Source: a virus
Length of the DNA: 24,710 nt
Direction: 5' to 3' (one strand)
Virus record (IMG/VR): IMGVR_UViG_3300042312_000015
Location: 1-24,710 of that record
Shown: positions 1 through 24,161 of the stretch, in pieces
How positions within the stretch are numbered: position 1 is the first letter of the stretch
Layout: each line of letters starts with the position of its first letter
Program-made: the position numbers and the translations under genes
The notes under the pieces: generated by a model
The model's database searches: none
Seen by the model: only the letters and a program-made list of their open reading frames with translations
Told to the model about the DNA's origin: nothing

Positions 1-345
1 CAAAAAGCAACCGCCACGGGAGTAAAGTCCGAATGGCACACGCCACCACTTACAATGGAGGGTTTTGACATTTTTGTGATGAACTACGAAGGAATAGAGT
101 CGAAAGGAGTTGAACAGTATTTCTCAAATAGAGAGGGTAGATATTCGGCGTTTGTAGGTATCTGTGCACGCATAAAGAAAGAAATCAGAAACGACCAAAT
201 TCAAGGCGGTATGGTTGGACAGTTTAACCCGTCAATTACTCAGCGCTTAAATGGACTCACTGAAAAGACGGACGTAACCACAAACGGTAAAGAGATAAAC
301 GAGATTAAAGTAAACATCGTAAGGGATGGAACTGTCTATAAATAG
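1..345 (+). CDS. Terminase small subunit, 5' truncated by window edge
   Basis: The reading frame is open from base 1, so the gene starts upstream; the first in-window ATG (55) is internal. The visible 114 residues contain a mid-protein segment (about residues 50-85) with RNDQ, then NPSITQRLNGL. I recognise this from small terminase or DNA-packaging proteins of Bacteroidota phages, which bind DNA and recruit the large terminase to start packaging. The 3' end overlaps the large terminase start by 20 bases, which suggests translational coupling. Immediate linkage to a clear large terminase is the strongest support. The N-terminal DNA-binding helix-turn-helix would lie outside the window and cannot be checked. 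Confidence 0.75.
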   Translation, partial: QKATATGVKSEWHTPPLTMEGFDIFVMNYEGIESKGVEQYFSNREGRYSAFVGICARIKKEIRNDQIQGGMVGQFNPSITQRLNGLTEKTDVTTNGKEINEIKVNIVRDGTVYK

Positions 346-1483
346 TACTGTAATATTTGAACAGAACTTCGACGCACTTCAAGACCCGTCGATTCGATTT
401 ATAATTAATCAAGGCGGTTCTCGTAGTTCAAAGACTTACTCACTTTGTCAGGTGTTAATAGTCTATTGCCTACAAAATCCAAACAAGGTTGTTAGTATAG
501 TCAGAAAGACGTTCCCAGCTTTAAGGGCTACGGTGATGCGTGACTTCTTCGAGGTGCTTAAAGACTTGGACATATACGAAAAGAGTTCGCACAATATGAG
601 TGAAAACATTTACCGCTTTGCCAACGGGTCAATAGTAGAGTTCTTCAGCGTAGACGATGAACAGAAGGTTAGGGGTCGAAAACGTGATATCGGTTGGTGT
701 AACGAAGCAAATGAACTTTGGTTTGAAGACTTTCAGCAATTGAATATGAGGACTGAAACGAAAATGATTTTCGACTATAACCCGTCGGACAGTTCAAGTT
801 GGCTTTACGAACTACCAAAAGACGAAAGCATTTTAATTAAATCCACGTACAAAGACAACCCGTTCCTTCCTGAATCAATTATAAGACAAATCGAAGACCT
901 TGCACGGACAGATGAGGCGTTATATCAAATCTATGCTTTAGGTGAAAAGGCAATTAGCAAGACAAATATTTTCAACACTTGGGAGTTCATAACTCAAAAG
1001 CCTCAACGCTTTACTAACTACGTTTACGGGCTTGACTTTGGTTATAACCACCCAACTGCGTTAATGCGGGTTTATTGGTGCGAAGGTGATATTTACATCG
1101 AACCCGTTCTTTACGAATCCTATTTAACAACAAGCGAACTAATTGAGCGATTTAAACAACTAAACATTGAACAGACCGTTGACATACTTGCGGATTACTC
1201 AAGACCCGAAATAATTGCTGAGATGCAAAACGCTGGGTTCAACGTGAACAACGCAAACAAAAACGTCAAGTCAGGACTAAACGCCGTTAAGACTTTCAAG
1301 GTGTGGTGTAAGCAAGACGAGAACCTTAAAAAAGAATACGAAAACTACAAGTGGAAAAAAATAGGCGACAACATAACCGATGAACCCGTGAAACTTTACG
1401 ACGATGCAATGGACGCCGTGAGGTATGCTGTGATGTTTATTAAAGAAATGTACTTTACTGACGACTCTTATTTAGCCTTCTAA
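326..1483 (+). CDS. terL: Terminase large subunit (packaging ATPase and nuclease)
   Basis: This is the motor that pumps phage DNA into proheads and cuts it. The N-terminal ATPase has a Walker A loop GGSRSSKT at residues 30-37 and a Walker B-like strand followed by NEANEL near 121-131. The C-terminal RNase H-fold nuclease shows the expected acidic residues: D237 in GLDFGYNHP, D290 in ILADYSRPE, and a D-rich motif LYDDAMDAVRY at 357-367. At 385 residues it is near the usual length for Terminase_3 or PBSX-type proteins and appears intact. It overlaps the small subunit by 20 bases. A 30-base gap with a promoter-like element separates it from the next gene. Confidence 0.95.
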   Translation: MELSINSTVIFEQNFDALQDPSIRFIINQGGSRSSKTYSLCQVLIVYCLQNPNKVVSIVRKTFPALRATVMRDFFEVLKDLDIYEKSSHNMSENIYRFANGSIVEFFSVDDEQKVRGRKRDIGWCNEANELWFEDFQQLNMRTETKMIFDYNPSDSSSWLYELPKDESILIKSTYKDNPFLPESIIRQIEDLARTDEALYQIYALGEKAISKTNIFNTWEFITQKPQRFTNYVYGLDFGYNHPTALMRVYWCEGDIYIEPVLYESYLTTSELIERFKQLNIEQTVDILADYSRPEIIAEMQNAGFNVNNANKNVKSGLNAVKTFKVWCKQDENLKKEYENYKWKKIGDNITDEPVKLYDDAMDAVRYAVMFIKEMYFTDDSYLAF

Positions 1484-1508
1484 AACACGAAGTTTATTTT
1501 ACTATTAT
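1484..1508 (+). promoter_or_regulatory. AACACG-N12-CTATTAT element, copy 1
   Basis: AACACG (1484-1489) and CTATTAT (1502-1508) lie in the 30-base gap after the terminase, ending 5 bases before the ATG at 1514. A 23-base block (1496-1518) is identical to the block before the tape measure gene (5655-5677). Similar pairs occur before 12847 and 15412 and at 24136-24161. It may be a phage promoter or a translation-initiation element. If TATTAT acts as a -10 box, transcripts would begin at about the start codon. Confidence 0.5.
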
Positions 1509-1513
1509 AAGAT

Positions 1514-2932
1514 ATGGCAATAACAACAATAAACGAACCTTACGACAGGACACCAGCTTACAATCCGATTAAGTTCTTGTACGACTCAACGAACAAAAAC
1601 AACTTAGGATTCAAATACATCTTTGACGTATACGAAAGCGGGACTGCAAACAAGATAGCTGAGTACAGAGTCTTTCCAAGGTATTCAGACGGCTACGGTG
1701 AAATAGACTTAAGTAAGTTACTTCAGAACAAAGTTACGTTTGACTTCGACCCGAACTTAGTTGAAAGCGACCCAGCGACAAATAGTTATTACAAATACGA
1801 TTTGAAAGTCGGAGAGGAGTACGTGGTAACCTATACTTACACGGCTAACCTTGTAAACAATGGAGGTAACATTCAAATAACGCCAACAACGGCACACACG
1901 TTTCAAGTAGGTGACCAAATCGTTTTATTTGCTGGGTTGGCTAACTCAGCGGTTAACGGGCTTTGGACAGTGATAGCAATAAGCGGAACAACAAACTTTA
2001 CAATCAACGCTTTGTTTGCAAATGTAAGCAACCCAACAGATAACGGAACGGTTAACTATGCCGACAACAGAAAGACGATTACACGAGACATTGTAACCAC
2101 TTTAAACAAATATGTTTTTAACGGTGCTTTGCCTTGGTCAATATTTAGAGAATATGAAGAAAACGATTTTATTTTAGATGATGCAGGTGCTAAACTTTTA
2201 ACAAACATTCCTGCCCGTGGTGGTTTTAGAGTTACACCTGAACAAGATTTGTGGGTTAACATAATGAATAACTTTGACACAACAGGTTACATGGTGTTCG
2301 GTAACTCGGACGGTGACATCTTTGCAAAGCCAATAACTGACAACGCTTTAATAACTCAAGTTGGAGTTGGAGCAAACAACCTTGGAACGTTAACACCTTT
2401 GGTCGGAACTTTACCCTTAATTAAACCGACAACAACTTCGTACAGCTTTGTATACACGGACGCAAGTTATAACGACCAATCTTTAATATACACAATAGAC
2501 TTGGACACACGCTGCAAGATTGAAGACTTTGAACTAGCTTTCTTGGATAGGTTAGGGTCATTCGGTTCTTTTGCTTTTCAACTTAGAGCGTATGAACAAG
2601 GTAATGTGAATAAAGAAGTTTATAAACAAGACGTTCAAGGTTACACAAGTGGTGGAATGTGGACTTACGCAACAGATGAGTTCGGAAGTAGAGTAATTAA
2701 TCCAACCGTTGAAAAGACGTACCAATTAAACACTAATTGGCTAACGGTTGAAATGGATACTTATTACCAAGAATTAATCTCAAGCCCTCAAGTTTATATA
2801 AAAATAGGAGGACGTTATTATGCTTGTATAGTTCAAGAAACATCGTTTGAGGTGGCAAGGCAAAAGAACAAGAATTTAATAATGCGAAGCGTGAGTGTAA
2901 TGTTAGCAAATCAAGACTCTATCAATGGTTAG
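1514..2932 (+). CDS. Phage structural protein, probably tail or baseplate, with inserted beta domain
   Basis: This 472-residue, beta-rich protein has no signal peptide or membrane segment. Its N-terminus (PAYNPIKFLYDS, then FKYIFDVY) resembles a family I associate with the tail region of Bacteroidota phages. Residues about 112-185 look like an inserted small domain. They contain TAHTFQVGDQIVLF followed by AVNGLWTVIAI, the pattern of FCCH-type beta domains seen in phage tail proteins. The gene has its own upstream AACACG/CTATTAT element and overlaps the next gene by 8 bases (ATGGTTAG). Position between terminase and tape measure supports a virion role, but the exact part is not determined. Confidence 0.55.
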   Translation: MAITTINEPYDRTPAYNPIKFLYDSTNKNNLGFKYIFDVYESGTANKIAEYRVFPRYSDGYGEIDLSKLLQNKVTFDFDPNLVESDPATNSYYKYDLKVGEEYVVTYTYTANLVNNGGNIQITPTTAHTFQVGDQIVLFAGLANSAVNGLWTVIAISGTTNFTINALFANVSNPTDNGTVNYADNRKTITRDIVTTLNKYVFNGALPWSIFREYEENDFILDDAGAKLLTNIPARGGFRVTPEQDLWVNIMNNFDTTGYMVFGNSDGDIFAKPITDNALITQVGVGANNLGTLTPLVGTLPLIKPTTTSYSFVYTDASYNDQSLIYTIDLDTRCKIEDFELAFLDRLGSFGSFAFQLRAYEQGNVNKEVYKQDVQGYTSGGMWTYATDEFGSRVINPTVEKTYQLNTNWLTVEMDTYYQELISSPQVYIKIGGRYYACIVQETSFEVARQKNKNLIMRSVSVMLANQDSING

Positions 2933-5642
2933 AATACAACTACAAAACGGATATTTAGACGTTAAGGACGGGACAGCGTTTCCGATTAGTTTTCAGGTTG
3001 GTGACATTCGTGACTTGTCAACACGTAAAGGTGCGTTTAGTAAAACGATAGTTCTCGAAAACACTAAGAATAACCACGAACTTTTAAACCATTATTACGA
3101 CGTAAATATCCAAGCGGGGACGTTCAACATAAACACGATTACTAAATGTAGTGTAATTCAAAATGGTATTCCCGTAATGGAAGACGCTTCCCTTCAATTA
3201 ATCGCAGTTAAGAAAGTTCAAACGAACGACGCTCACGAACAAGGTGTTGAATATGAAGTATTAGTTAAAGACAGTCAGTCAGATTTCTTTACTACGTTAG
3301 GCGGTGCTGAATTAACAGACTTAGATTTTTCAGACCTTAACCACACTTACGATAGTGCAACGGTTGTTGGTAGTTGGTCGAATACGGTTGCCGACGGTTA
3401 TAAGTACGTATTACCTTATTCAGGTGACAACTTTTACCCACTCAAAGAAATGAAACCCGCTATTTATGCTCAGACTTATTTCGATAGGATTTTCGCAACG
3501 GCTGGTTTTAGTTACGATTGGTCAACTTTACAAGATGCTTACTTCGACAAGTTGTTGATTCCTTACAACGGGGAGCTTGAAAATGTGGATTATTCAGCGT
3601 ACACTGTTGAAGCAAACAATACCGAAACAATAGACGGCTACCAAACAACAGCTGGACAGAATAACTCGTTTAGTGAGCAGTTAGTCGGATGGACAGAAAC
3701 ACTTGATGCATTTAACTTATTCACACCTTTGACGGGTGTCTACACAAACACGTTCACAGTTAACTCAGGTGAATCCATAAACTTTAACTTCGCTTGTGAG
3801 TACGATATTAACTTAATCAACTCTACGGGTGCAACAGCTTACTTAAACGGCTTTGGTAACTTTACACCGTTTGCAGCTTATCGCTATACTTTGCGCTTTC
3901 AGATTTACGTTAACGGGGTATTTAACTCTTCGAGTAACTTTGCAACAATCGGAACATTCGACGGTGAACAAGACGAAGGCACAAACATACCAAACGGAAG
4001 TACGAACCTTGGTACATTCACAAGAAACTTTACTATACCAGTTTCAAACCTTTCAAGCGGTGACACTATCGAAATTTATGCGGGTCTTCAAGTCCAAGAA
4101 TATTTGGGAGCTGGTGGAACTGGGTTTTTAAGATGGCAAAACGTAGGAGGTACAAACGTATTAATTGACACACAGCTTGATTTAACGAGCGTTGATATGT
4201 CAGTGGTTGCATCAACAAATATAACAGGCTCGGGTGGTACATTAATAATCAATAATTACGTTCCTAAAAAGATTAAACAATCGGACTTCGTTAAGGCTAT
4301 TTTCACAATGTACAATTTGTATACTGAGATAGACCCTGACAATCCTAATAAACTTATCTTGTCACACCGTGACGATTATTACGACGCAGGACAAGAAAAG
4401 GACTGGACTTATAAACTTGCAAAAGACCAACAACAAGACCTTAAATTCTTGCCTGAGATTACTTCAAAGAGATTAATCTTAACATACAAACAAGACAGCG
4501 ACCAACCTAATAAAAATTACTTCGAGGCAACGGGCGAAATTTACGGGCAAGTCGAATACATTTACGACAACGAATATGTAAAGAATATAGACAAAAAAGA
4601 GATTCTGTTCAGTCCTACTCCGATGTCAAAGACGGTATTCAATGCTGTTGTTCCTTTACTTGCTGGTGCTGCACCAAAGACGAACATAAGAATCTTGTTT
4701 GACGGTGGTATGTTTAACTGCGACCCGTTCAATATTTACGACTACGGAACAACGGGACAAACTAACCTCGTTCAATACCCTTCGATAATACATTTTAACA
4801 ACCCTTACGTTCCAAGCTTTGATTTGAATTTTGGGGTGTGTGATTATTATTACTATCAACAAAGCATACTAACCAACAACAACTTATTTAACCTTTATTG
4901 GCGACGAACAATAGGACAGATTAACAACGGTAAAATGTTGACCGCTAAGTTTAACCTTCGAGAAACTGACATCGCTACGCTGAAACTAAACGATAAAATA
5001 CGAATAGACAATTCTTGGTGGAACATAAACAAGGTTATTGACTACGACTGCAACAACCCAAGGTTAACAACGGTTGAACTTTTGAGCATTGATGAGGAGA
5101 TTGACTTCGCACAGTTCCAAACAGGCAAACCTTTTATCCCAACGGTTGGTGAACTTGGAACAATTACCGAACCTATCATAAACACGAATAACGAAAACAA
5201 CAACGTAATAAGTCTTGGAAGTAACGCAATGGTCTATGGTCAAGGTAATGTAATTCAACAAGGTTTTCAAGGTGTTGTCGTAGGTAATAACAAGATTGTC
5301 GGAGCGGGTGACTCAGGAATATGGACGGACACAATAAACGGTAAGTCAGTAAGTGAGCCTTTTCCCTTCGGTATCGTTTACACACCTACTTTAGTTGACC
5401 AAGATTACACAGTAACCACAGACGACACACTTATAATTTCAGACGGAGCAGCTTTAGTTAATGTTACACTTCCAGCGGTTGGTGATTTCGGGCGCACGTT
5501 TATAATTAAAAATATTTCAACTTTCAATGTAGACGTTCAAGGAACTGGTGTAGATTTAATTGACGGGTCTGCAACCTATACTTTAAACCAATGGGACGCT
5601 GTCACTGTTTTGGATTCGGGGACTGAGTGGTTAACCATATAA
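2925..5642 (+). CDS. Large tail or baseplate protein with YadA-like and stalk-like C-terminus
   Basis: The product has 905 residues. The N-terminus (about 1-130) has the pattern RKGAFSKTIVLENTKNN, then YDVNIQAGTFN, which I recognise as a conserved tail-protein start in Bacteroidota phages. The middle is beta-rich. Near residues 765-800 there are short YadA/head-like repeats (VISLGSNAMVYGQGN, GVVVGNNKIVG). The last 75 residues form a repetitive beta domain (VTLPAVGDFGRTFIIKN, then SATYTLNQWDAVTVL), like trimeric tail-spike stalk or tip modules. It is translated from an ATG overlapping the upstream stop. It may form the baseplate hub or a side fibre; which of these is not resolved. Confidence 0.55.
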   Translation: MVRIQLQNGYLDVKDGTAFPISFQVGDIRDLSTRKGAFSKTIVLENTKNNHELLNHYYDVNIQAGTFNINTITKCSVIQNGIPVMEDASLQLIAVKKVQTNDAHEQGVEYEVLVKDSQSDFFTTLGGAELTDLDFSDLNHTYDSATVVGSWSNTVADGYKYVLPYSGDNFYPLKEMKPAIYAQTYFDRIFATAGFSYDWSTLQDAYFDKLLIPYNGELENVDYSAYTVEANNTETIDGYQTTAGQNNSFSEQLVGWTETLDAFNLFTPLTGVYTNTFTVNSGESINFNFACEYDINLINSTGATAYLNGFGNFTPFAAYRYTLRFQIYVNGVFNSSSNFATIGTFDGEQDEGTNIPNGSTNLGTFTRNFTIPVSNLSSGDTIEIYAGLQVQEYLGAGGTGFLRWQNVGGTNVLIDTQLDLTSVDMSVVASTNITGSGGTLIINNYVPKKIKQSDFVKAIFTMYNLYTEIDPDNPNKLILSHRDDYYDAGQEKDWTYKLAKDQQQDLKFLPEITSKRLILTYKQDSDQPNKNYFEATGEIYGQVEYIYDNEYVKNIDKKEILFSPTPMSKTVFNAVVPLLAGAAPKTNIRILFDGGMFNCDPFNIYDYGTTGQTNLVQYPSIIHFNNPYVPSFDLNFGVCDYYYYQQSILTNNNLFNLYWRRTIGQINNGKMLTAKFNLRETDIATLKLNDKIRIDNSWWNINKVIDYDCNNPRLTTVELLSIDEEIDFAQFQTGKPFIPTVGELGTITEPIINTNNENNNVISLGSNAMVYGQGNVIQQGFQGVVVGNNKIVGAGDSGIWTDTINGKSVSEPFPFGIVYTPTLVDQDYTVTTDDTLIISDGAALVNVTLPAVGDFGRTFIIKNISTFNVDVQGTGVDLIDGSATYTLNQWDAVTVLDSGTEWLTI

Positions 5643-5667
5643 AACACGATTAAAATTTTACTATTAT
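5643..5667 (+). promoter_or_regulatory. AACACG-N12-CTATTAT element, copy 2
   Basis: AACACG (5643-5648) and CTATTAT (5661-5667) have the same spacing as copy 1, and the CTATTAT ends 5 bases before the tape measure ATG. The 23 bases ending at 5677 are identical to those ending at 1518, although the downstream proteins are unrelated. That argues for selection on the element. Confidence 0.5.
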
Positions 5668-5672
5668 AAGAT

Positions 5673-7949
5673 ATGGCGGGTACAATTAACGTAGGTACAA
5701 TTCAAGTAGGCGGTTTAAAAGAACTCAAAGCGGAACTTAAAGCGGTTCGTGACGAGTTACTAAATGCAACCGACCCGAAAAGAATGCAAGAACTCGCAAC
5801 CGCAGCGGGTGAACTCAAGGACAGAATAGGAGACGCAAACGAACAAATAAACGTCTTTGCAAGTGGCTCTAAATTCGAACAAATAAACAACTCTTTTGGT
5901 AGCCTTAAGGATTCGATTATGAACCTTGACTTTGAAGAGGCTGCTGATAAAGCGAAAATATTTCAAACAACTGTAACTTCAATAAATCCTGAAACAATAT
6001 CGAAAGGTATTCAAGGCTTAACAAGTACAGTTAGCACGTTAGGAAAAACGTTTATTCAATTTGGGGTTATGTTATTAACGAACCCTATCTTTTTGTTGGT
6101 CGCTGCAATTACCGCCATCGTTGCTGGTATTATTGCCTTAATGAATGCACTCGGAATATTACAGCCAATTATGGATGCTGTCGGTGCAGTGTTTGGTTTT
6201 ATAGGTGACCTTATTCAAATTGTAATTGATGCAATAAAAGAGTTCTTATCGTGGTTCGGTTTAAGTGAGGGAGCTGCTGAAGAGGGCGAAGAAAACGCCA
6301 AAGAACGACACGCCGCAGAAATGAAGCGTAACGAAGAACTAAAAGCGCAGCGTGAACTTCTATACAACAACGAACAAAGCGCATTACAACGAACTATTGA
6401 TTTAAAGAAAGCCGAAGGTAAAGACACTTACCTTTTGGAGATGCAGAAATTAAATGCGACTGTTCAATATCAAAAGCAATTAGTTAACCAATTACAACTT
6501 CAATATAAAATATATGAAGCGATAGCCGCTGAGATGGAACTTAGAGGGTTTGCCAATACTGAAGTAGGGAAAGAGGCTGCAAAAAGACGAGATGATTTCA
6601 AGAAACAAGTAAATGACTCTTTGAATTTAGGGCTTGACGCTGCTAATCAAATGAAGATTTTAACAATTAACTACGAAAAGTCGCAGCAAGAAGAGATTAA
6701 AAAAACCGCAGAAGACAGAGCAAAGGCAGCGGAAGAAAGGCTTGAGGCTTTAGAAAAGATTCAGGAGGTCGAAGAAAAATACAGATACAGTCAACTAAGC
6801 GAACGAAAGCAAGAACTCGAGGACATTGACAAGAATTATAAAGAGGCTTTCACACTTGCTAAAAAATACGGTCAAGATACAAGCACGTTATTAGCCAATT
6901 ACAACGCAGAACGTAAAGCGGTTAACGACAAGTTTGACGAAGAGGAAAGAAAGACGGCTGAAGAGAAAGCCGCAGAAATGGACACTCTTTTACGTGAGTT
7001 AAATTATAAAACACTTTCTGAAACTGAGGCTTCCCGCCAAATGGAAAGAGACGCTCTTAATGATTGGTACGACGAAAAGATTTTACTAAACGAAGCAAAT
7101 GCTGAATTAGTTAAGAAACTACAAGACCAACAACTCACAGACCAGTTAGCTTTAGAACAAAAGTTTTTCGACGAAGATAAAGAACTAAGAGACGAGAAAG
7201 AAAAAGACCTTGCAGATTTACGCAGCGAAGTAGCATATACTTTAATGACTGAAGAGGATGCTGCAAGACAAAAAGAACTTGACGACCTTGCTGCGTGGTA
7301 CGAAGAGAAGATGTTATTAGCAAAAGATGATGCAGCTTTGCAAGTTCAACTACAAAAATCTTTAACGGAACAAGTAAAAGCAATAAACGACCAAGCGAAA
7401 GCCGACGAGATTCAAGCGATTATCGATAAAGGGACTGTAATTGCAGACTTAACAAAAGACGGTTTAAGCGCAGTTAACGACATTGTAAGCGCATTCGCTG
7501 GAGAAAGTGAGAAACAGCAAGAGAAAGCATTTAAAGTTAATAAGGCTGCAAACATTGCAATGGCTGTAATCGATACTTTAAAAGGTGCTGTCTCAGCTTA
7601 CACAAGTCAGATAGTAGCTGGTGACCCTACGAGCGTTATTCGTGGCGCTATTGCTGCGGCAATGGTTACGGCTGCGGGTATTGCAAACATTAAAAAGATA
7701 TCAGCAACACAGTTCAAAGGAGCAACTGCTTCAAGTGCTTCAGGCGGTGCGGGTGCAAGTGGTGGCGGTGGCGGTGTTCAACCAGCAACCCCACAAACAA
7801 ACCTCTTTGGACAGTCCAACAATATGAACACGGTGACAAGCGCACAAAGTGTAGAAAGTCAGCAAGTAATTAAGGCGGTTGTTGTTGAAAGCGATATCAC
7901 AAACAGTCAATCGAGAGTAAAACGAATGGAAGAAAACGCAACACTATGA
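5673..7949 (+). CDS. Tail tape measure protein
   Basis: This protein sets tail length and occupies the tail tube lumen. Its 758 residues have the expected layout: a charged N-terminal region with GGLKELKAELKAVRDELL near 13-30, a hydrophobic block at 127-190 with two or three membrane-type helices, and a long coiled coil rich in E, K, Q and A (about 200-600). A second Ala/Gly hydrophobic segment lies near 625-680, then a Gly-rich tail (about 690-710). Within the coiled coil, two related units (around 7015-7120 and 7240-7345) share the pattern A(S/A)RQ...L..WY(D/E)EK..L, suggesting internal duplication. At roughly 0.15 nm per residue the length would imply a tail near 110 nm (inference). The stop overlaps the next ATG by 4 bases. 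Confidence 0.9.
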   Translation: MAGTINVGTIQVGGLKELKAELKAVRDELLNATDPKRMQELATAAGELKDRIGDANEQINVFASGSKFEQINNSFGSLKDSIMNLDFEEAADKAKIFQTTVTSINPETISKGIQGLTSTVSTLGKTFIQFGVMLLTNPIFLLVAAITAIVAGIIALMNALGILQPIMDAVGAVFGFIGDLIQIVIDAIKEFLSWFGLSEGAAEEGEENAKERHAAEMKRNEELKAQRELLYNNEQSALQRTIDLKKAEGKDTYLLEMQKLNATVQYQKQLVNQLQLQYKIYEAIAAEMELRGFANTEVGKEAAKRRDDFKKQVNDSLNLGLDAANQMKILTINYEKSQQEEIKKTAEDRAKAAEERLEALEKIQEVEEKYRYSQLSERKQELEDIDKNYKEAFTLAKKYGQDTSTLLANYNAERKAVNDKFDEEERKTAEEKAAEMDTLLRELNYKTLSETEASRQMERDALNDWYDEKILLNEANAELVKKLQDQQLTDQLALEQKFFDEDKELRDEKEKDLADLRSEVAYTLMTEEDAARQKELDDLAAWYEEKMLLAKDDAALQVQLQKSLTEQVKAINDQAKADEIQAIIDKGTVIADLTKDGLSAVNDIVSAFAGESEKQQEKAFKVNKAANIAMAVIDTLKGAVSAYTSQIVAGDPTSVIRGAIAAAMVTAAGIANIKKISATQFKGATASSASGGAGASGGGGGVQPATPQTNLFGQSNNMNTVTSAQSVESQQVIKAVVVESDITNSQSRVKRMEENATL

Positions 7950-8584
7950 CAAGCTATTACGCACTATTAAATAAACTCGAAACATTCTTTAACGCTCACC
8001 TACAAGTAAAGAAATTTGGCGGTGAATTTAGAGAGCAAATGCCGAACTTTTCGACAATGGACGAGCGTTATCCTTTGGTGTACGTTGTTCCTACGTCTGA
8101 GATAAGCGGAATGAATACGAACGTGTTTACTTTAGACGTTTATTGTGTGGATATTATTCAGAAAGACCGAGCCAATATAAACACGATTCTAAGCGATACT
8201 CAATTAATATTAAACGACCTTTATTTATACTATACAGACGGGACAGATTTAAGCGTAACGGTAATTACTGACCCGACAATGACACCGTTAAACAACTTTG
8301 ATTTGGATTATGTTGCTGGGTGGGTTGGTACATTTACATTTGAGGTCGACCAGTATTCAGTTTGTGCTATTCCAGTTGAACCGATTACTCCAGTAACTAA
8401 CGAATGTCAGTGTGACCCCGTAACCGTTCAAAACTCGGATGATTCTTATAATGAAGTTGTTGATTGTGGTGACACTTTAATTTTGCCCGATACAACTTAT
8501 AATGTATATTTGGATTCGGTTCTTGTAGCAACTGAGACCGCTGTAACTTTAGCAAACTTTGATATAAACATAATATGGCAGTAA
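7946..8584 (+). CDS. Tail terminator-like protein with Cys-containing C-terminal extension
   Basis: Residues 1-145 look like a small tail-terminator or completion fold: an N-terminal helix (LLNKLETFFNAH), then YPLVYVVPT, a strand FTLDVYCVD near 61-69, a helix with ILSDTQLILNDL near 81-92, and a final strand GWVGTFTFEV near 125-134. Residues about 153-212 form an extension with C154, C156 and C174 and the pattern VTVQNSDDSY...TLILPDTTYNVY. I have seen this kind of beta module appended to other Bacteroidota phage proteins. The start overlaps the tape measure stop (ATGA) and the end overlaps the tail fibre start by 10 bases. The terminator assignment is inferred from pattern and position. Confidence 0.5.
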   Translation: MTSYYALLNKLETFFNAHLQVKKFGGEFREQMPNFSTMDERYPLVYVVPTSEISGMNTNVFTLDVYCVDIIQKDRANINTILSDTQLILNDLYLYYTDGTDLSVTVITDPTMTPLNNFDLDYVAGWVGTFTFEVDQYSVCAIPVEPITPVTNECQCDPVTVQNSDDSYNEVVDCGDTLILPDTTYNVYLDSVLVATETAVTLANFDINIIWQ

Positions 8585-10767
8585 ATATAAACATACCCTC
8601 ACAAGTAAGTCAAACAATTACAGACGGGGTTACAGATAAGGCACCAAGCGAAGACGCAGTACACGACGCTTTGGCATTAAAAGCAAACAGTGCGGATTTA
8701 GGTGCAACGGCTTTTTCTAATGATTATAACGACTTAGATAATTTACCAACGATTCCAAGTTTAACGGGTTATGTTCCTTACACGGGTGCAACTAACGACG
8801 TAGACTTAGGGACTTATAACATAACTGCTGACCATATAAATCTAAATGTGAGTCCTTCAGGTGCTGGTTTTGTCGTAGGTTCTACGCAATGGAATAATAC
8901 AATCGGAAGTTCAGAAACACTTTTAAAAGGTGGTAGCGTAACCTTAAAGAACGGAGTTGATTTAGTTGCACGAGTGGTTAACAAAGTAACACCTAACACT
9001 ACATTAACAAAAGCGGCTTATCAAGCTGTAAGGGTTAGCGGTGCGCAAGGTGGACGCTTAGCTGTTGCTTTGGCTCAAGCAAACAACGATAATAATTCAG
9101 CGGACACAATAGGACTTGTTACCGAAACAATAGCAACAAATCAAGAAGGGTTTATTATTACAGTAGGTCAAATTGAAAATATAAATACAACGGGAAATCT
9201 TCAGGGTGAAACTTGGACAGATGGAGACGTTCTGTATTTAAGTCCAACAGTAGCTGGTAAATTAACAAACATAAAACCAACGGGTGCAACGGGTCATATA
9301 GTTGTTATCGGTTACGTTGAATATGCTCACGCAAACAACGGAAAGATTTACGTTAAAATAATGAACGGTTGGGAACTTGACGAACTTCATAATGTTTCAA
9401 TTTCTTCGGTTGCTAATAATGATTTATTGCAATACGATTCAGCCACTTCGCTATGGAAAAACGAAAGCTTAAGCACTGCGGGAATACAGCCAACTTTACA
9501 AAGTGGGACGAACATAAAAACAATTAACGGAACTTCCTTACTTGGTTCAGGTGATATAACCGTAGGAGGTGGGATAACAGTAGGAACAACTGCGGTAACT
9601 TCGGGAACTGTTGGAAGAATATTCTTTGAAGGAACGGGTAATGTAGTTCAGCAAAGTGCTTCTTTGTTTTGGGACAATACCAACGCAAGGCTTGGAGTAG
9701 GAGCAACACCAGCAAGTACAGTAAGACTTGATATAAGAGCGCAAGGTGCATTATCAACTGACATAGCATTTAGAGTTAGGAATAGTGCAGATAGTACTAA
9801 TATAATATCTATATCAGGTAATGGTCAATTTGCTATAGGATTAAGTGCTTCTACTGCTGCCGCAACTGCCGTTACTATAGGTGGAACTGCATCAACTGCA
9901 TCAGCAACTTCAGTAGCAATTGGTTACGGAGCAAACACAGGGGTATCAAGCGATTCTTCAATGTCTGTGGGTTATGCAGCATCAGCAACAGGTTATAGGG
10001 GAGTTGCATTAGGATTTTTAACAAATGTTACAGGTACTCAAGGTATATCATTAGGTGAAAGGGCAGCAGTAACTGCGACAAATAGTATAGCAATTGGTTC
10101 TGCTGCAAATGTTTCTGCAAGTGGTGCATTTGTAGTAGGTGCAAATGCTTCAAATGCTATTGCTAATTCAAATGCTTTTAGTAATGGTTCTATAAATGGG
10201 TATTCTTTTTTCAATGATATTAACTCAAATTATATTATTAATTCATCAATAATACCTGTTAATAATATATCTTATATAAACACCACAAAAAATGTATTGT
10301 ATTTAGGGACAGGAATTAAGCCATCAAGCAATATTAAAAATGGAGTTCAGATTTACACAAATTATAGAACAATAAGCCAAGCATCATCTACAGTAGGTGC
10401 AACTTGTACAGGAATAGCAAATTCAAAAACATTAACTTTTTCATCTGGTACTAATATGTCAGCATTAACTGTTGGAACAAGACTTATTATTACTAATAAT
10501 GGTGGAGAACAAACACACGCTAATATAGTTTCTGTTGTTGGTTTAGTAGTTACAATTGATACTGCATTAGTTAATATAAATTCTCAAACTATAAGCGCTA
10601 CCGCTACTTCAGTAAGCAATTCTACGGTAGTTATTGTTTCAGATTTTCATCAGGAAACAAGGAATGACCAAGGAGATATTATTAAATTATATAAACAATC
10701 AAGTACAGGAATTATAACTGTTGGTCAATTAGTAACAGTACTTCAAAATTTAGGGCTTTTATCTTAA
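8575..10767 (+). CDS. Tail fibre / receptor-binding protein with YadA-head repeats
   Basis: The 730-residue product has the modular look of Bacteroidota phage fibres. Near the N-terminus it has TGYVPYTGATNDVDLGTYN (about 64-82). A stretch near 270-295 has LHNVSISSVANNDLLQYDS, and NGTSLLGSGDITV follows near 318-330. From about residue 415 to 540 there are about 14-residue YadA-head-like repeats with (S/G)(V/I)A(I/L)G cores, such as SVAIGYGAN, GVALGFLTN and SIAIGSAAN. The C-terminus returns to a conserved ending (GDIIKLYKQ to LLS). Such repeats form trimeric beta-rolls. The likely role is host surface recognition. The 3' part (about 9760-10760) is richer in A+T and poorer in CpG than the 5' part, suggesting a swapped module. 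Confidence 0.7.
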   Translation: MAVNINIPSQVSQTITDGVTDKAPSEDAVHDALALKANSADLGATAFSNDYNDLDNLPTIPSLTGYVPYTGATNDVDLGTYNITADHINLNVSPSGAGFVVGSTQWNNTIGSSETLLKGGSVTLKNGVDLVARVVNKVTPNTTLTKAAYQAVRVSGAQGGRLAVALAQANNDNNSADTIGLVTETIATNQEGFIITVGQIENINTTGNLQGETWTDGDVLYLSPTVAGKLTNIKPTGATGHIVVIGYVEYAHANNGKIYVKIMNGWELDELHNVSISSVANNDLLQYDSATSLWKNESLSTAGIQPTLQSGTNIKTINGTSLLGSGDITVGGGITVGTTAVTSGTVGRIFFEGTGNVVQQSASLFWDNTNARLGVGATPASTVRLDIRAQGALSTDIAFRVRNSADSTNIISISGNGQFAIGLSASTAAATAVTIGGTASTASATSVAIGYGANTGVSSDSSMSVGYAASATGYRGVALGFLTNVTGTQGISLGERAAVTATNSIAIGSAANVSASGAFVVGANASNAIANSNAFSNGSINGYSFFNDINSNYIINSSIIPVNNISYINTTKNVLYLGTGIKPSSNIKNGVQIYTNYRTISQASSTVGATCTGIANSKTLTFSSGTNMSALTVGTRLIITNNGGEQTHANIVSVVGLVVTIDTALVNINSQTISATATSVSNSTVVIVSDFHQETRNDQGDIIKLYKQSSTGIITVGQLVTVLQNLGLLS

Positions 10768-10785
10768 CTTTATAAATAAAAAACA

Positions 10786-11100
10786 ATGGGACTTATAATT
10801 AATTCAACAGAACAAAACACGATTACAATCACGGGAACAACTATTGACGTTCCAAGTGTTTACGGAAGATTAGAGTTTGCTGGAAGAGCAGACGGTAAAA
10901 CTTTAGAAATTGCAGTTGCAACCTACGCAAGTAAAGAAGCTTTTGAAAGCGGTGCTTTAGCACTGAGTACAAATGTTCCGATGGGAAACTTAACAGTAGA
11001 AATTCAACCAAATGAAGTGCAAGGTTTAGACACTGCACACGAATACGGTAAGATAGCATTTGAAAATGCTGGGTATAATGTTACAATTGATTTAAGTTAA
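10786..11100 (+). CDS. Small phage structural protein, function unknown
   Basis: The 104-residue protein is beta-rich and without Cys or membrane segments. Strands such as TITITGTTIDVPSVYGRLEF alternate with a short helix containing SKEAFESG. I do not recognise a named family. Translation starts after an A-rich tract (aaaaaacaATG). The stop and the next start overlap as TAATG, so it is probably coupled to the downstream gp10-like gene. Its position after the fibre gene suggests a minor tail, neck or fibre-associated protein. A fibre assembly role is possible but has no direct support here. Confidence 0.6.
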   Translation: MGLIINSTEQNTITITGTTIDVPSVYGRLEFAGRADGKTLEIAVATYASKEAFESGALALSTNVPMGNLTVEIQPNEVQGLDTAHEYGKIAFENAGYNVTIDLS

Positions 11101-11528
11101 TGGCTAAAGTTTTTAAGGTAAAATACCCGACAAGAAATAAACTTGCAAGGTCTTTGCAGAAAGAAATTCGTGCGCTTGGTTTAATTGACGAAGGTACACT
11201 TTACGATTCCATTAAAATTTCAGCAATGACTGGAAGTAAACTAAACGAGATTAACCTCATTATAAATGCAATGTATTACTATTTGTTTTTAGATGAGGGA
11301 ACAACTCGAGGAATACCTCCTTACTCAATTACTGACAAATGGTTACAGCGTTCAGATACTCAAGCGATAATAGGTGAGATAGTAAACGAGTATATTGCTT
11401 GGCAATTTGAAAACTATCCTTTCCTACAAATGGCAACTATTTTGAATGCACCAAAAGTTAAAATACAATTTAATTGGATTGATTCACCTTATACTGACTT
11501 ACCAACAGAACCAATGACAGCATTTTAA
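11100..11528 (+). CDS. Head-tail or tail completion protein, HK97 gp10-like candidate
   Basis: This 142-residue protein has a basic N-terminal helix (RNKLARSLQKEIRALG) and then DEGTLYDSIKISA, a strand INLIINAMYYYLFLDEGT near residues 52-68, and the helical segment SITDKWLQ. The pattern 'small residue-tyrosines-X-E-G-T' resembles the core of gp10-type tail-completion proteins, which join the tail to the head. That assignment rests on pattern only. The gene ends in TTAA, which is also the stop of the minus-strand gene, so the two convergent genes overlap by 4 bases with no terminator between them. Confidence 0.5.
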   Translation: MAKVFKVKYPTRNKLARSLQKEIRALGLIDEGTLYDSIKISAMTGSKLNEINLIINAMYYYLFLDEGTTRGIPPYSITDKWLQRSDTQAIIGEIVNEYIAWQFENYPFLQMATILNAPKVKIQFNWIDSPYTDLPTEPMTAF

Positions 11529-12259
11529 CTCAAAACGTGTTTCATTGAAAGCATATTAAAAACAAATGTTAAAGGTAGGTCGGTAACTTGGTCTACCTTT
11601 GTAACGTCTTCACCAGCTAAGTTATAAACTAAACTTTCCCAAGCGTATTTGCCTCGTTTCTTTTCCTCTTCAACTTCCTTTTTTTCTTCGGGCGTTAACT
11701 CTTCGGTGTCCTCTTCGCCTTCAAACTGAGGTGCAAATAAATTTTCGTATTGCTTAGTAAAACTGTCTCTAAATTTAAGATACTCAGACACCAAACCAAA
11801 CACCGCAGTAACGGGTATTTCTTTAAACAGTTCAGAACGCTCAAATAGATTGTAATTATAAGGTTCAAAAACACGGTTACCCCATTCGTCAACCTTGGTT
11901 TGTCTGTAAAATATTGCTGTAATAATCGGAATATTACCGATTTTGTCTTTAACCGTGAAATAATCTGCGTCAATAAACTCACCAAGCGTTATTTTGTCGA
12001 ATGGTTTAAACGTAAATTTGTCTATTTGTTCATTGATTTTAACACGGGGTTCAGAGCGTAACCAAATTAAATCCTTTAATACGTTGTTTAGTTCATCAAC
12101 TTCAAGGTCGTAAAGGTCTTCGGGGTCTTCGTCAAGTAAAATTGAAAGCGTCTCTACTTGCATTTCGAAAACGCTCTCAAAATCCTTTTCCTCTAAACTT
12201 GCTAACTCCGTGAATTGATTAACCGTTATTTGATTCCAACTCTTTGGCAACTTCATCAT
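11525..12259 (-). CDS. Tail assembly chaperone-like protein, longer paralogue
   Basis: This minus-strand gene encodes 244 residues. The N-terminus (WNQITVNQFTELASL) matches the start of the upstream neighbour in pattern, followed by an acidic helix and a central region (KITLGEFIDADYF). The C-terminus, after a charged E/K linker (about 180-200), has YAWESLVYNLAGEDVTKVD. That ending resembles the extended tail chaperones (gpGT-type) of Bacteroidota phages, proteins that help tail tube subunits assemble around the tape measure. The start is ATGATG inside the 3' end of the upstream gene (41-base overlap). Its frame is +1 relative to that gene. No obvious slippery site is seen, so separate coupled initiation is more likely than frameshifting. 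Confidence 0.5.
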   Translation of the reverse strand: MMKLPKSWNQITVNQFTELASLEEKDFESVFEMQVETLSILLDEDPEDLYDLEVDELNNVLKDLIWLRSEPRVKINEQIDKFTFKPFDKITLGEFIDADYFTVKDKIGNIPIITAIFYRQTKVDEWGNRVFEPYNYNLFERSELFKEIPVTAVFGLVSEYLKFRDSFTKQYENLFAPQFEGEEDTEELTPEEKKEVEEEKKRGKYAWESLVYNLAGEDVTKVDQVTDLPLTFVFNMLSMKHVLS

Positions 12260-12785
12260 TGATTTGTTTAGCGGTGTCTTTCATTTTTTCACCTATAAAA
12301 GCAATGTAGGGAAGTGTGAACTCGGCGTTTAGTTTCTTAAATAGGTTTGCTTTGTGTTTAATGTGTGCGTCTGCGTAGTGTTCTTGGTCCTTAAGGTCCG
12401 TTCGTTTAAATAGCACCGCAATAACTTTTGAAATATAACTGTTCGGATTGTTCTTAATAATCTTTTCGATGTGCTTCATATCACGAACCGAAATAGTAAG
12501 CTTCTTATCGTGGCTTTTGTAGGTATAGCCTTCAAGTTCAAACGACTTTAAAAACTTTTTAGATGCTTTGTAAGTGATAGCATTAAACTCTTTGACCTTT
12601 TCTTTGAACTCAGTAAACTCAAGTTCGTTAACTTCTGTTTCGTCAGCACCCAAAAACACGAATATATTAACCCACTTTTCAAAGGCGTCTAATTCTTGGC
12701 TGGTTATTTCTGAAACCTTTTCGAACTGTTCAATAGTCAGTTCGTTGATTACGTTTGGTACTTCTTTCGTTCCGATTTTTAACAT
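12219..12785 (-). CDS. Tail assembly chaperone-like protein, shorter paralogue
   Basis: This 188-residue acidic, helical protein is the first gene of a two-gene minus-strand unit. Residues 13-27 (INELTIEQFEKVSEI) align with the N-terminus of the following gene. Both continue with a helix, an acidic turn (ADETEVNELEF here, DEDPEDLYDLE there) and a second helix, so they look paralogous. The pair of a shorter and a longer overlapping protein is the usual arrangement of siphophage tail chaperones, normally just before the tape measure. Here they are antisense to the late genes and about 4 kb after the tape measure. A host-type -7 box (TATATTTG) lies 13 bases before the ATG. Function is inferred. 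Confidence 0.5.
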   Translation of the reverse strand: MLKIGTKEVPNVINELTIEQFEKVSEITSQELDAFEKWVNIFVFLGADETEVNELEFTEFKEKVKEFNAITYKASKKFLKSFELEGYTYKSHDKKLTISVRDMKHIEKIIKNNPNSYISKVIAVLFKRTDLKDQEHYADAHIKHKANLFKKLNAEFTLPYIAFIGEKMKDTAKQINDEVAKELESNNG

Positions 12786-12798
12786 AGCTTTTTTTCAA

Positions 12799-12806
12799 CA
12801 AATATA
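12799..12806 (-). promoter_or_regulatory. Bacteroidota -7 promoter box for the minus-strand pair
   Basis: On the minus strand the sequence reads TATATTTG, a full match to the Bacteroidota primary sigma -7 consensus TAnnTTTG. It sits 13 bases before the ATG of the shorter chaperone-like gene. The -33 region is only a T-rich tract without a clear TTTG. The inferred leader is under about 10 bases. Confidence 0.5.
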
Positions 12807-12814
12807 AAAAAAAT

Positions 12815-12840
12815 AACACTTATAAAATAACACCTATTAT
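12815..12840 (+). promoter_or_regulatory. AACACT-N13-CTATTAT element, copy 3
   Basis: AACACT (12815-12820) and CTATTAT (12834-12840) precede the protease start at 12847. The 13-mer CTATTATTTAGTA (12834-12846) recurs exactly at 24155-24167. A 10-base direct repeat AAAATAACAC (12810-12819 and 12824-12833, 14 bases apart) also lies in this divergent 61-base intergenic region, which must serve both strands. Confidence 0.5.
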
Positions 12841-12846
12841 TTAGTA

Positions 12847-13815
12847 ATGAAAGAGGAGTTACCACTTTATAAAATAACTATCGACGAAGAGTACAGCGAA
12901 GGCGAAGAACTCGGGATTGATATGATTGCATTCACGTCAAAACCCGCCGTTATGGTAAAAGGAATGGCATTTAAAGCTGTTGAAAATTTCTTTTTTAAAG
13001 ACGAACCAAAGATGAGGATAGTAGCACCCGCTATGATTCCAATGAACATCTACAGGAACGACGAAGGCGAAGAGTATTTCGTTCAATTTACGGAACAAGA
13101 GATTGAAAACATTTACTCTAAGTTTATGCAAGACCTAAACAATCAAAACTTGTTTAATCTTGAGCATACAGAAAAGAAAGTTCCAGCTTACATTTTAGAG
13201 GCTTGGATTGTTGACAACCCAAAAGAGGACAAGTCTTATTCAACATACGGTATCGAAGTTCCAAAAGGGACTTTAATGTTGACCGCACAAATTACAGACA
13301 AAGAATATTACCAAGAGTTGGTAAATAAAGACCAAGTAGGCTTCTCGATAGAGGGTTTTTTAGGTCTTAAATTAAGTAATCAATTAAATAAATTAAGTAT
13401 GAAGTTACCTGATGGAGAACACTTAATCGAAGGTAAAATCTACGTTGTAAAAGACGGCGAGGTTATCGAGATTAAGGAAGAAGTTCCAGCGGAAATGGAA
13501 GCGGAAATGGCAGCTGAAGAAGTTGTTGAAGCTGAAGTTGAAGCAGAAGAGGTTGCGGCAGCGGAAGTTGAAGAAAAAGTTGAAGAAGAAATCGCAATGG
13601 CGGTTGACCCACAAACAGATTCTGAAGCGGTTCTTGCTATCGTGCAGCCTGTTTTAGATGCAATGGCTACCGAACTAATGAAAGCTATTGCAGAAGTAAA
13701 AGCATTGATTCCCGTTGTTGAAGAAACGGAAACAGAAGAAGTTGAATTGTCGGAGCAAAAGTTTTCCGCAATTGAAACGCTAAAAAAATACAGACAATTA
13801 TTTAAAGAAAACTAA
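12847..13815 (+). CDS. Prohead protease fused to a scaffold-like domain
   Basis: Residues 1-175 match the XkdF-type prohead serine protease pattern: PAMIPMNIYR near 61-70, EGEEYFVQFTEQEIE near 74-87, NLEHT with likely catalytic H107, AWIVDNP near 119-125, and VGFSIEGF with likely nucleophile S167. From about 210 the protein becomes very rich in E, A and V (acidic repeats to about 250), then helical, ending in KKYRQLFKEN. This matches an internal scaffold that shapes the prohead and is then digested. The fused layout (322 residues) fits its position one base before the capsid gene. It is the first gene of the head operon, with copy 3 of the CTATTAT element at its start. Confidence 0.8.
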   Translation: MKEELPLYKITIDEEYSEGEELGIDMIAFTSKPAVMVKGMAFKAVENFFFKDEPKMRIVAPAMIPMNIYRNDEGEEYFVQFTEQEIENIYSKFMQDLNNQNLFNLEHTEKKVPAYILEAWIVDNPKEDKSYSTYGIEVPKGTLMLTAQITDKEYYQELVNKDQVGFSIEGFLGLKLSNQLNKLSMKLPDGEHLIEGKIYVVKDGEVIEIKEEVPAEMEAEMAAEEVVEAEVEAEEVAAAEVEEKVEEEIAMAVDPQTDSEAVLAIVQPVLDAMATELMKAIAEVKALIPVVEETETEEVELSEQKFSAIETLKKYRQLFKEN

Positions 13816-13816
13816 A

Positions 13817-14749
13817 ATGAACAGAAAATTAAAATTCGATTTAGATATCGAAACTAACGCACTTTTATGTGCAAACCCTGACGAGTTTTATTCTCGTGCT
13901 TATTTAACTGAAGACCTTGTTGATAATTACAGAACTTTGCCTTCAATTAAGTCAGCTACTAAATTAGCAAATGTTACTTTCGGTAACATCCTCGCAGCTT
14001 CTAACTGTAACTTTACAGCACCTAACGATTCACTTGACGCTATCGATATCGACGTTTGTGCGTTGTCAGCAATGGCTCAAATTTGTCAATTTGATTTGGA
14101 GCAGTCTTTTGTTTCTTTACAAATGGCTCAAGGTTCTAACGGTGACTTTACAGTTGCTTCTTTTATGAACTACTATTGGAATGAAATGTCTTTGAAAATT
14201 CAAGAAGACCTTGAGTTAATCAGATGGCAAGGTGACACAGGAAGCGAAGACCCAGTTCTTTCTTTGTGTGATGGTTATCTTGTTAAACTTTGTGGTGATG
14301 GTGATTTGGCTGCTGGTCTTTATAGCGGTGCTGTTGACTCTACTAACGTAATCGCTAAAATGACTGCGGTTTATACTGCTTTACCAGCTGCGGTTATCCG
14401 TAAGAAAGCTGACTTACGTTTCTACGTTTCTTCAAACGTTGCTGCTGCTTATGAGTTGGCTGCTGCTACTGGTAACACTCAGACTTACGTTACTTTACCT
14501 TTAGGATTAACTTTCTTGGGTGTTAAAGTTGTTGTTGCTGACGGTATGCCTAACGACACAATGGTGTTGACTTTGAAATCTAACCTTATCTACGCATTCG
14601 ACGGAGAGGGAGATTCTAAAGCGTTGAAAGCTGTAAACTTGACTGATACTGTTGCTGAGCCTTACTTGAGAACTCGTGCAAATATGAAGGTAGGTTTTTA
14701 CTACACTAACCCTGCGGAGATAGTAGTTTACTCAGTTTGTTTTGACTAA
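13817..14749 (+). CDS. Major capsid protein
   Basis: This 310-residue protein probably has the HK97 fold and forms the icosahedral shell. Evidence is the position directly after the protease-scaffold gene (one base between stop and ATG) and the pattern of a long N-terminal region, a helix with QDLELIRWQGD-like residues (about 131-141), an A-domain containing ADLRFYVSSNVAAAYELAA near 194-212, and a final strand VGFYYTNPAEIVVYS. Codon use shifts strongly to GCT, GGT, GTT, TCT and AAC, as in the tail tube gene and unlike most neighbours, as expected for the most highly expressed virion genes. A strong hairpin terminator follows. There is no N-terminal delta domain, consistent with a separate scaffold. 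Confidence 0.85.
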   Translation: MNRKLKFDLDIETNALLCANPDEFYSRAYLTEDLVDNYRTLPSIKSATKLANVTFGNILAASNCNFTAPNDSLDAIDIDVCALSAMAQICQFDLEQSFVSLQMAQGSNGDFTVASFMNYYWNEMSLKIQEDLELIRWQGDTGSEDPVLSLCDGYLVKLCGDGDLAAGLYSGAVDSTNVIAKMTAVYTALPAAVIRKKADLRFYVSSNVAAAYELAAATGNTQTYVTLPLGLTFLGVKVVVADGMPNDTMVLTLKSNLIYAFDGEGDSKALKAVNLTDTVAEPYLRTRANMKVGFYYTNPAEIVVYSVCFD

Positions 14750-14769
14750 TTAATTTAATTAATAATCTT

Positions 14770-14802
14770 AAGGGGGTTCGGGTTCGCCCTTACCCCTTTT
14801 TT
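14770..14802 (+). terminator. Rho-independent terminator after the capsid gene
   Basis: An outer stem AAGGGG (14770-14775) pairs with CCCCTT (14793-14798) and encloses a nested GGG-TTCG-CCC hairpin (14780-14789), with a T run at 14797-14802. The UUCG loop is a very stable RNA tetraloop. It lies 20 bases after the capsid stop and 13 before the tail tube start. It may cap the capsid mRNA or protect its 3' end while allowing partial read-through. Confidence 0.75.
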
Positions 14803-14815
14803 AATACTTTAAAAT

Positions 14816-15322
14816 ATGGCTTGTACAGCATTAGAGGCAATCGTAAAAGGGTGTGATAATAACATCGGTTCGATTACTAAAATTTATATTAACGACCTTG
14901 AGAATGTAACGGCGGTTACAGAGGACGTTCCAAACTGGATTATAACAGCAATAACGGTAACTGCTGACTTCGAAGAATTCGAGTTCAGAAGAAACACTTC
15001 AAACTACACAGAAGAGGCTGCAATAGATTTAATTAACGGTTCGTCTTTCGTTACTCAAACAATTAACTTAATGTTCCACAGACGTGAGGGAGCTAAGTCA
15101 AGAGCAATCAAAATCCTTGGCGAAGGTCAAAGAGATTTAGCGGTTATCGTTCTTGACGGAAACGGTAAGTATTGGTACTTTGACAAAGTTCAAGTTACCG
15201 CTTACGGTGAAGGTTCAGGAACAGCGAAAGCTGACGGTTCTAAATACTCTTTAGTATTGACTGCGGAAGCTGAAAACTTGGCTTACGAAGTAGACCCAGA
15301 CGTTATTCCTACAATTATCTAA
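14816..15322 (+). CDS. Major tail tube protein
   Basis: The 168-residue product has the beta-rich pattern of phage tail tube subunits. The C-terminal part reads VQVTAYGEGSGTAKADGSKY, then SLVLTAEAENLAYEV near 150-164, a pattern I recognise from tail tube proteins of Bacteroidota phages. Codon choice is biased like the capsid gene (TCT, GGT, GCT, GTT, AAC), which supports high expression. It is a single-gene unit between two hairpin terminators, so its level can be set separately from the capsid. The start context taaaatATGGC resembles the starts at 1514 and 5673. Confidence 0.75.
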   Translation: MACTALEAIVKGCDNNIGSITKIYINDLENVTAVTEDVPNWIITAITVTADFEEFEFRRNTSNYTEEAAIDLINGSSFVTQTINLMFHRREGAKSRAIKILGEGQRDLAVIVLDGNGKYWYFDKVQVTAYGEGSGTAKADGSKYSLVLTAEAENLAYEVDPDVIPTII

Positions 15323-15343
15323 CGATTACGCAAACACGTTAAG

Positions 15344-15370
15344 ACCCTCGATTTATTTCGGGGGTTTTTT
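15344..15370 (+). terminator. Rho-independent terminator after the tail tube gene
   Basis: ACCCTCG (15344-15350) pairs with CGGGGGT (15359-15365), including one G-T wobble, around an 8-base loop, followed by a T run (15365-15370). It lies 22 bases after the tail tube stop. Confidence 0.8.
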
Positions 15371-15381
15371 GTTTTATAACA

Positions 15382-15403
15382 AACACGTAATTAACCCTAT
15401 TAT
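15382..15403 (+). promoter_or_regulatory. AACACG-N9-CTATTAT element, copy 4
   Basis: AACACG (15382-15387) and CTATTAT (15397-15403) lie between the terminator at 15344-15370 and the ATG at 15412. Spacing is 3-4 bases shorter than in the other copies. Its position directly after a terminator makes a promoter role plausible for the portal, connector and lysis genes. Confidence 0.45.
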
Positions 15404-20238: not shown

Positions 20239-20270
20239 TTATACACAATTAAAAAAGTTGTGTACATTTG
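20239..20270 (+). promoter_or_regulatory. Early control region: DnaA-box-like inverted repeat overlapping a -7 box
   Basis: TTATACACA (20239-20247) matches the DnaA-box consensus TTATNCACA. TACACAA (20242-20248) and TTGTGTA (20258-20264) form a perfect 7-bp inverted repeat with a 9-base spacer. TACATTTG (20263-20270) matches the Bacteroidota -7 box TAnnTTTG and overlaps the right arm. No good -33 TTTG is seen. The flanks (about 20200-20300) are extremely A+T-rich. The site could be an operator over the early promoter, a replication origin, or both. A phage DnaA-type DNA-binding protein is encoded 1.2 kb downstream. Confidence 0.6.
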
Positions 20271-24145: not shown

Positions 24146-24161
24146 CTTTTTATACTATTAT
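24136..24161 (+). promoter_or_regulatory. AACACT-N13-CTATTAT element, copy 5
   Basis: AACACT (24136-24141) and CTATTAT (24155-24161) have the same spacing as copy 3, and the 13-mer CTATTATTTAGTA at 24155-24167 is identical to 12834-12846. Here it is not followed by a start codon but by a structured RNA candidate, which suggests a transcriptional rather than a translational role. Confidence 0.5.

Follow-up and report, generated by a model that had tools for sequence, protein, structure and literature searches.

Probable late promoters of uncultured Bacteroidota phages and the candidate ECF-like sigma factor that may read them

A bipartite element, AAC followed at a nearly fixed distance by the heptamer CTATTAT, occurs five times in the 24,710-nucleotide stretch of viral DNA analysed here (the window), four times shortly before a start codon and once before a structured non-coding RNA. 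In all likelihood, the five elements are the promoters of the late (virion) genes of a Bacteroidota phage and are read by an ECF-like sigma factor encoded by the phage itself. A fuller picture is one of an uncultured Bacteroidota phage lineage with its own minimal ECF sigma factor, in which sigma and -10 core have codiverged into at least eight specificities around a nearly fixed AAC, late mRNAs are near-leaderless in a phylum where such transcripts are rare, and a kissing-loop RNA figures as a target that switches between host and phage promoters; as a joint proposition, this appears to be favored on balance.

Recurrence and placement of the elements

The window record comprises 24,710 bases, while its close relatives mostly measure 29–32 kb, and it is evidently cut off at its left end. 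Its landmarks, the elements (P2 to P6) and the neighboring signals are:

326..1483, + strand: gene for the terminase large subunit (terL), the landmark
1484..1508, + strand: probable late promoter P2, AAC (-35) and CTATTAT (-10), 5 nt before the ATG at 1514 (tail operon)
5643..5667, + strand: probable late promoter P3, 5 nt before the ATG at 5673 (tape measure protein)
5673-7949: tape measure gene
12799..12806, - strand: host-type -7 box TATATTTG, serving the - strand gene pair 12785-11525
12815..12840, + strand: probable late promoter P4, 6 nt before the ATG at 12847 (protease-like/capsid operon)
12847-13815: protease-like gene
13817-14749: virion structural protein gene
15341..15368, + strand: intrinsic-terminator-like hairpin at the end of the transcription unit that precedes P5
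15378..15403, + strand: probable late promoter P5, 8 nt before the ATG at 15412 (head/portal operon), after the terminator hairpin
15766-17106: portal gene
19334 onward: DNA-metabolism genes
20263..20270, + strand: host-type -7 box TACATTTG, preceding the early/replication operon
24136..24161, + strand: probable promoter P6, preceding the structured non-coding RNA, with no ORF
24163..24261, + strand: structured non-coding RNA of ~95 nt, 5' end inferred

A recurring element of this kind, with five copies, had been proposed by a sequence-only reading of this DNA, and its recurrence holds against shuffled sequence: the pattern AACACK-N(6-16)-CTATTAT matches five times in the window, on the + strand only, against 0.03 expected from dinucleotide-preserving shuffles, with at most one match in each of 100 shuffles. 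Over the whole 24,710-base record, there are five forward, no reverse and no backward-control matches of the bipartite pattern. The 7-mer CTATTAT by itself is only weakly enriched (10 observed against 4.5 expected, about two-fold), in keeping with the caution, given with the proposal, that it should occur several times by chance; as a single-motif signal it was dropped as too common. The further sequence details noted at the outset, namely a 23-mer common to 1496-1518 and 5655-5677 and the repeat CTATTATTTAGTA common to two elements, are indeed present. The near-constant spacing likewise stands, except that the upstream half of the fourth element had been assigned to the wrong repeat, at 15382; this start was dropped for AACAAACACG from 15378, which gives an AAC-to-CTATTAT distance of 18–19 nt, in agreement with all the other sites.

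The placement of the elements is equally regular. CTATTAT ends 5, 5, 6 and 8 nt before the ATG at the four late sites, precisely the range first reported, and the elements at 1484 and 5643 start directly 3' of the stop codon of the preceding gene. The fifth, at 24136, has no ORF after it and precedes the structured RNA, which the sequence-only reading had not seen. P4 and a host-type promoter on the opposite (-) strand point away from each other. None of the five elements has the host TAnnTTTG -7 box, again as initially stated; such boxes sit elsewhere in the window, where the box as such is without enrichment, so that those at 12799 and 20263 rest on position. A generic sigma-70 promoter scan of the window did no better than chance (13 matches against 10.0 in shuffles).

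Two features of this late block deserve separate mention. The two-gene - strand unit at 11525-12785, with its TATATTTG box, lies within the late block of many relatives, divergent from P4, and neither of its proteins has a significant family match. Further on, a GC-rich terminator-like hairpin (14760-14815) lies between the capsid-like gene and the gene at 14816; several clades have it, with no late promoter behind it, and it is perhaps an attenuator reducing expression downstream of the capsid gene.

Concerted change of the core among relatives

Relatives were collected by terL from IMG/VR (80 loci, 75–98% identity). The strict motif is present at orthologous places in the nearest nine loci (L006-L014), and over all 80 loci it gives 21 forward matches, against one reverse match and one for a reversed-motif control. 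Beyond the near relatives it vanishes, and the ~30-nt spacer after terL carries a diverged version of it in nearly all loci; P2 thus has an orthologue after terL in nearly all relatives. Each genome has a core specific to its clade, which recurs before its other late operons: CTATTAT in clade A, TACTTAT in B, TTAATAT in C, TCATTAT in D, ACAATAT in E, GCAATAT in F, GCAACAT in G and TACAATT in H. Besides the place after terL, the elements are found in front of the tape measure gene and of the protease/capsid and portal operons; in clades A, D, E and probably C, one also stands directly after the gene for a sigma-like protein (described below). The tape measure gene has no recognizable site in clades B, F, G and H as aligned.

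Upstream of these varied cores, the start of an AAC lies 18 or 19 nt from the core (15–16 nt between) at 47 of the 59 tabulated sites, with three expected when the upstream part is shuffled, a count partly conditioned on clade core patterns that were picked by viewing the sites. Of the other 12, most either deviate from the regular expression or belong to genes for which the clade in question has no site. More contigs, retrieved through the sigma-like protein, are arranged alike after terL and add cores such as ACAATAT and TAATAT, a few nucleotides from the ATG; some of the newly found clades among them have no clear AAC there.

The likeness of sites within a genome was measured by permuting genomes within each site (20,000 permutations). 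Non-homologous sites of one genome have a mean best 10-mer match of 8.25/10, against 7.03 when permuted (sd 0.13, maximum 7.61). Under mere inheritance, the second site of a genome should most resemble the second site of other genomes; instead, non-homologous sites within a genome are alike, the pattern to be expected of a single trans-acting factor that reads every site in a genome. That the elements are a product of chance or base composition, or dispersed repeats without function, is barely credible, for all the modest, roughly two-fold enrichment of the 7-mer by itself: the bipartite pattern occurs 5 times against an expected 0.03, and neither chance nor copied repeats explain a different sequence in each clade at the same positions. 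Matches inside coding DNA are few, and the sites precede the tail, capsid and portal operons and the non-coding RNA. A phage-specific late promoter, as the sequence-only reading had suggested, is supported by this conservation at orthologous sites and low density in coding DNA, the two checks which that reading had named, together with the position before late operons and the lack of the host box.

A candidate sigma factor upstream of terL

The same reading had argued that such promoters would imply a phage-encoded or modified sigma factor or activator. An ECF-sigma-like gene precedes terL without exception in the related virus records examined: all 22 encode a ~170-aa protein 1.1–2 kb upstream of terL, and the gene is also seen in most of the shorter loci that reach far enough upstream. 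It is absent from the window because the record reaches back no more than 325 nt from terL, and searches of the window with TIGR02937 and with the sigma alignment were empty, as expected of a record cut there.

By sequence, the family is a divergent one. The NCBIfam model TIGR02937 (sigma70-ECF) matches 13 of 30 diverse members, at best with 1e-4 and over nearly the full length, in each case below its curated cut-off, which none of the 22 exceeds; PHROG 351, 'RNA polymerase sigma factor', matches seven of the 30 (best 1.2e-5). Pfam returned only weak and inconsistent HTH matches to the protein, and a search of PDB sequences with the sigma profile gave nothing useful. An AlphaFold2 model (pLDDT 80, pTM 0.41) has two helical domains, the low pTM possibly being due to a flexible link between them, and sigma factors make up nearly all of the best 50 Foldseek matches in the PDB, with a best E-value of only 1e-3. 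VIA-align superposes the C-terminal domain on region 4 of sigma-E in complex with -35 DNA (Z 8.0, 2.8 A, 69 residues) and on a sigma-H (Z 8.6); its match for the N-terminal domain is region 2 of SigR (Z 7.0, 3.0 A, 70 residues). Z values of 7–8 can arise by chance for small helical domains, and the argument rests on the consistency of these matches. Viral predicted structures give the same answer. The model thus has the sigma-2 plus sigma-4 architecture, without regions 1.1 and 3, and the ~170-aa protein is predicted to adopt the two-domain fold of ECF sigma factors.

The elements have what such a protein would be expected to recognize. ECF promoters have a spacing of about 16 nt, and the elements combine AAC in the -35 part with a ~16-nt spacer and a specific -10. 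AAC is a common -35 motif of ECF sigma factors (PMC4153023; PMC8791391), and sigma-P uses a -35 of AACA with a conserved TA in the -10 (PMC8791391); since AAC is the usual ECF -35 signature, the near-invariant half of the element is the very part that a protein of this kind should read. Over eight clades, sigma distance is correlated with core distance (Mantel r 0.73, p 0.0008 over all permutations), a correlation confounded by shared phylogeny.

The family is common in uncultured viral contigs. None was found in cultured phages at E 0.01 (tblastn with one member as query), and none was confirmed in 84,980 bacterial and archaeal genomes with a five-member alignment.

Which factor confers specificity

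If the elements are late promoters, they might still be read by an alternative sigma factor of the host, such as a host ECF, rather than by the phage protein. Bacteroidota hosts have several ECF sigma factors (seven in F. psychrophilum; PMC9723704), and AAC is generic for ECF promoters; however, the cores of a phage clade have changed together and in parallel with the phage sigma, which is encoded near the late genes in all 22 records, and the -10 of the one ECF motif that has been mapped in F. psychrophilum contains CGT (PMC9723704). A host factor as the reader is therefore unlikely. Specificity could also come from another phage DNA-binding protein that acts as an activator with the host sigma, for which the product of 21424-21840 offers itself, with a Bac_DnaA_C match of 8.6e-9 and homologues in 10 of 11 genomes. 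This appears very unlikely, given that the homologue was not found in one genome (G018) where the late elements persist, that its gene has recombination genes (Erf, exonuclease) for neighbors, which points to a role in replication, and that the sites have the geometry of sigma promoters without a host -7 box. The protein is of some interest in itself: it is small, has a helix-turn-helix of the DnaA domain IV type, is encoded next to the Erf annealing protein and the exonuclease, and is perhaps a replication-initiation factor.

With the phage-encoded sigma as the favored reader, a temporal circuit can be proposed. Early genes would be transcribed from host TAnnTTTG promoters. A host-type box before the sigma operon, as seen in six of the eight clades, would lead to production of sigma; in these clades (B, D, E, F, G and H), TAnnTTTG lies 300–445 nt upstream of the sigma frame, and none was seen upstream of the frame in clades A and C. 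On the RNA polymerase of the host, the divergent ECF-type sigma would take the place of the primary sigma, with its sigma-4 domain reading AAC as the -35 and its sigma-2 domain reading the core 15–16 nt further on (CTATTAT in clade A). It would thereby switch on the packaging operon, whose promoter stands directly after the sigma gene in several clades, and the tail, tape measure, capsid and portal operons. The small structured RNA would also be among its targets in clades A and B.

Probable near-leaderless late mRNAs

At 46 of 47 sites, the core ends 4–9 nt before the ATG. The longest distance, 17 nt, is that of clade E after terL, where an A-rich leader separates core and start codon. In phage 7-11, transcription starts 6–9 bp from the promoter element (PMC8948821), and, with a similar start distance here, leaders of 0–3 nt would be likely. 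By this analogy, the late mRNAs are probably leaderless or nearly so, as the sequence-only reading had also proposed. Leaderless mRNAs make up only 5.5% in F. psychrophilum (PMC9723704).

Such proximity to the ATG raises the alternative that the elements act in translation initiation or as mRNA-leader signals, for genes that lack a Shine-Dalgarno sequence, all the more as translation in Bacteroidota depends on the bases just upstream of the start (PMC6847099). The geometry runs the other way: the distance from AAC to core is fixed at 18/19 nt, whereas that from core to ATG varies from 4 to 17 nt. Moreover, operon-internal genes are without the element, several having A-rich leaders of their own. 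The 17-nt leader in clade E and the placement of the fifth element before a non-coding RNA gene both argue that the element is not a translation signal, which makes this alternative highly improbable.

At several loci (L062, L039 and, in clade E, L050 and L068), the gene after terL has been swapped for another with the promoter core unmoved, and A-rich leaders precede the new start codon.

Parallels in known systems

The closest parallel to the proposed system is Salmonella phage 7-11 (PMC8948821). It too encodes a sigma factor (gp47) with region 4, has bipartite promoters with a 16-nt spacing (GTAAtg-16-aCTA) before several late operons, transcribes its early genes from host sigma promoters, and shares promoter positions with related phages despite differing promoter sequences. 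In both cases, a phage-encoded sigma, here a candidate, goes together with its promoters before late operons. The lineage described here differs in the host phylum, in the AAC-15/16-core element, in its small (~30 kb) genomes, in a sigma of only ~170 aa and in its probably near-leaderless mRNAs. In phiEco32, gp36 similarly directs the host polymerase to middle/late genes, but from single-element promoters (tAATGTAtA) and without region 4 homology (PMC8948821), in contrast to the bipartite elements and predicted region 4 found here. The system may thus work like those of phiEco32 and 7-11, a likeness of function that makes no claim of common descent of the sigma factors.

Among bacterial regulators, the ECF (group IV) sigma factors, e.g., sigma-P/ECF30, likewise have two domains and promoters with AAC in the -35 (AACA for sigma-P) and TA in the -10 (PMC8791391). 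In contrast to these, the genes served here are those of a phage, no anti-sigma or stress regulon was seen, and the core diverges strongly among clades. The TAnnTTTG promoters of the Bacteroidota primary sigma (PMC9723704) also occur in these genomes, where they precede early genes, the - strand pair and, in other clades, the non-coding RNA, but the elements lack this box and differ from these promoters in -10 core and spacing. No description of a sigma factor, late promoter or sigma regulon of Flavobacterium/Bacteroidetes phages was found in searches of the open-licence literature, which turned up at most a review of jumbo phages. This is apparently a known kind of system in a new lineage, undescribed for Bacteroidota phages.

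For a common but uncultured group of phages, the proposed system offers a temporal switch from host sigma to phage sigma to late genes. With a near-constant -35 and a diverging -10, its natural sigma-promoter pairs, of which there would be at least eight, form an unusually clear series for studying how sigma-2 specificity evolves, and orthogonal promoters for use in Bacteroidota could be drawn from them. Late mRNAs that are near-leaderless, if real, would also bear on the initiation of virion-protein synthesis by ribosomes that do not use Shine-Dalgarno sequences.

A structured RNA with two types of probable promoter

The RNA behind P6 (24163..24261) begins with a hairpin, GGTTC/GAACC, whose loop GCTCTGAC pairs with GTCAGAGC in the loop of the terminator hairpin, forming a kissing-loop or pseudoknot. 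Its 5' hairpin is matched by 109 viral stretches, and the complementary stretch is found downstream in 75 of 82 distinct instances among the loci examined. In an alignment of 54 sequences, every cell of the loop-loop helix (100%) is paired, the covariation score of the two helices is 0.328 against 0.118 when shuffled and at most 0.064 when slid, and a terminator stem of 7–14 bp follows in every sequence. A covariance model finds the RNA in nine of 11 near-complete genomes. A search of Rfam gave no relevant match, nor did blastn of the composite sequence against cultured phages give any. This RNA with a loop-loop pseudoknot and an intrinsic terminator is previously undescribed.

Its probable promoters are of two types. 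In 52 other instances of the RNA, a host TAnnTTTG box ends 5–7 nt before the conserved GTTC, and in clades A and B the phage core takes this place, ending 7 nt before the GTTC in clade A and 11–13 nt before it in clade B. The presence of two promoter types at one place before one RNA is a natural promoter swap. The RNA is widespread in uncultured Bacteroidota phages (A2 loci, e.g., L152, L158 and L196), mostly under host-type promoters.
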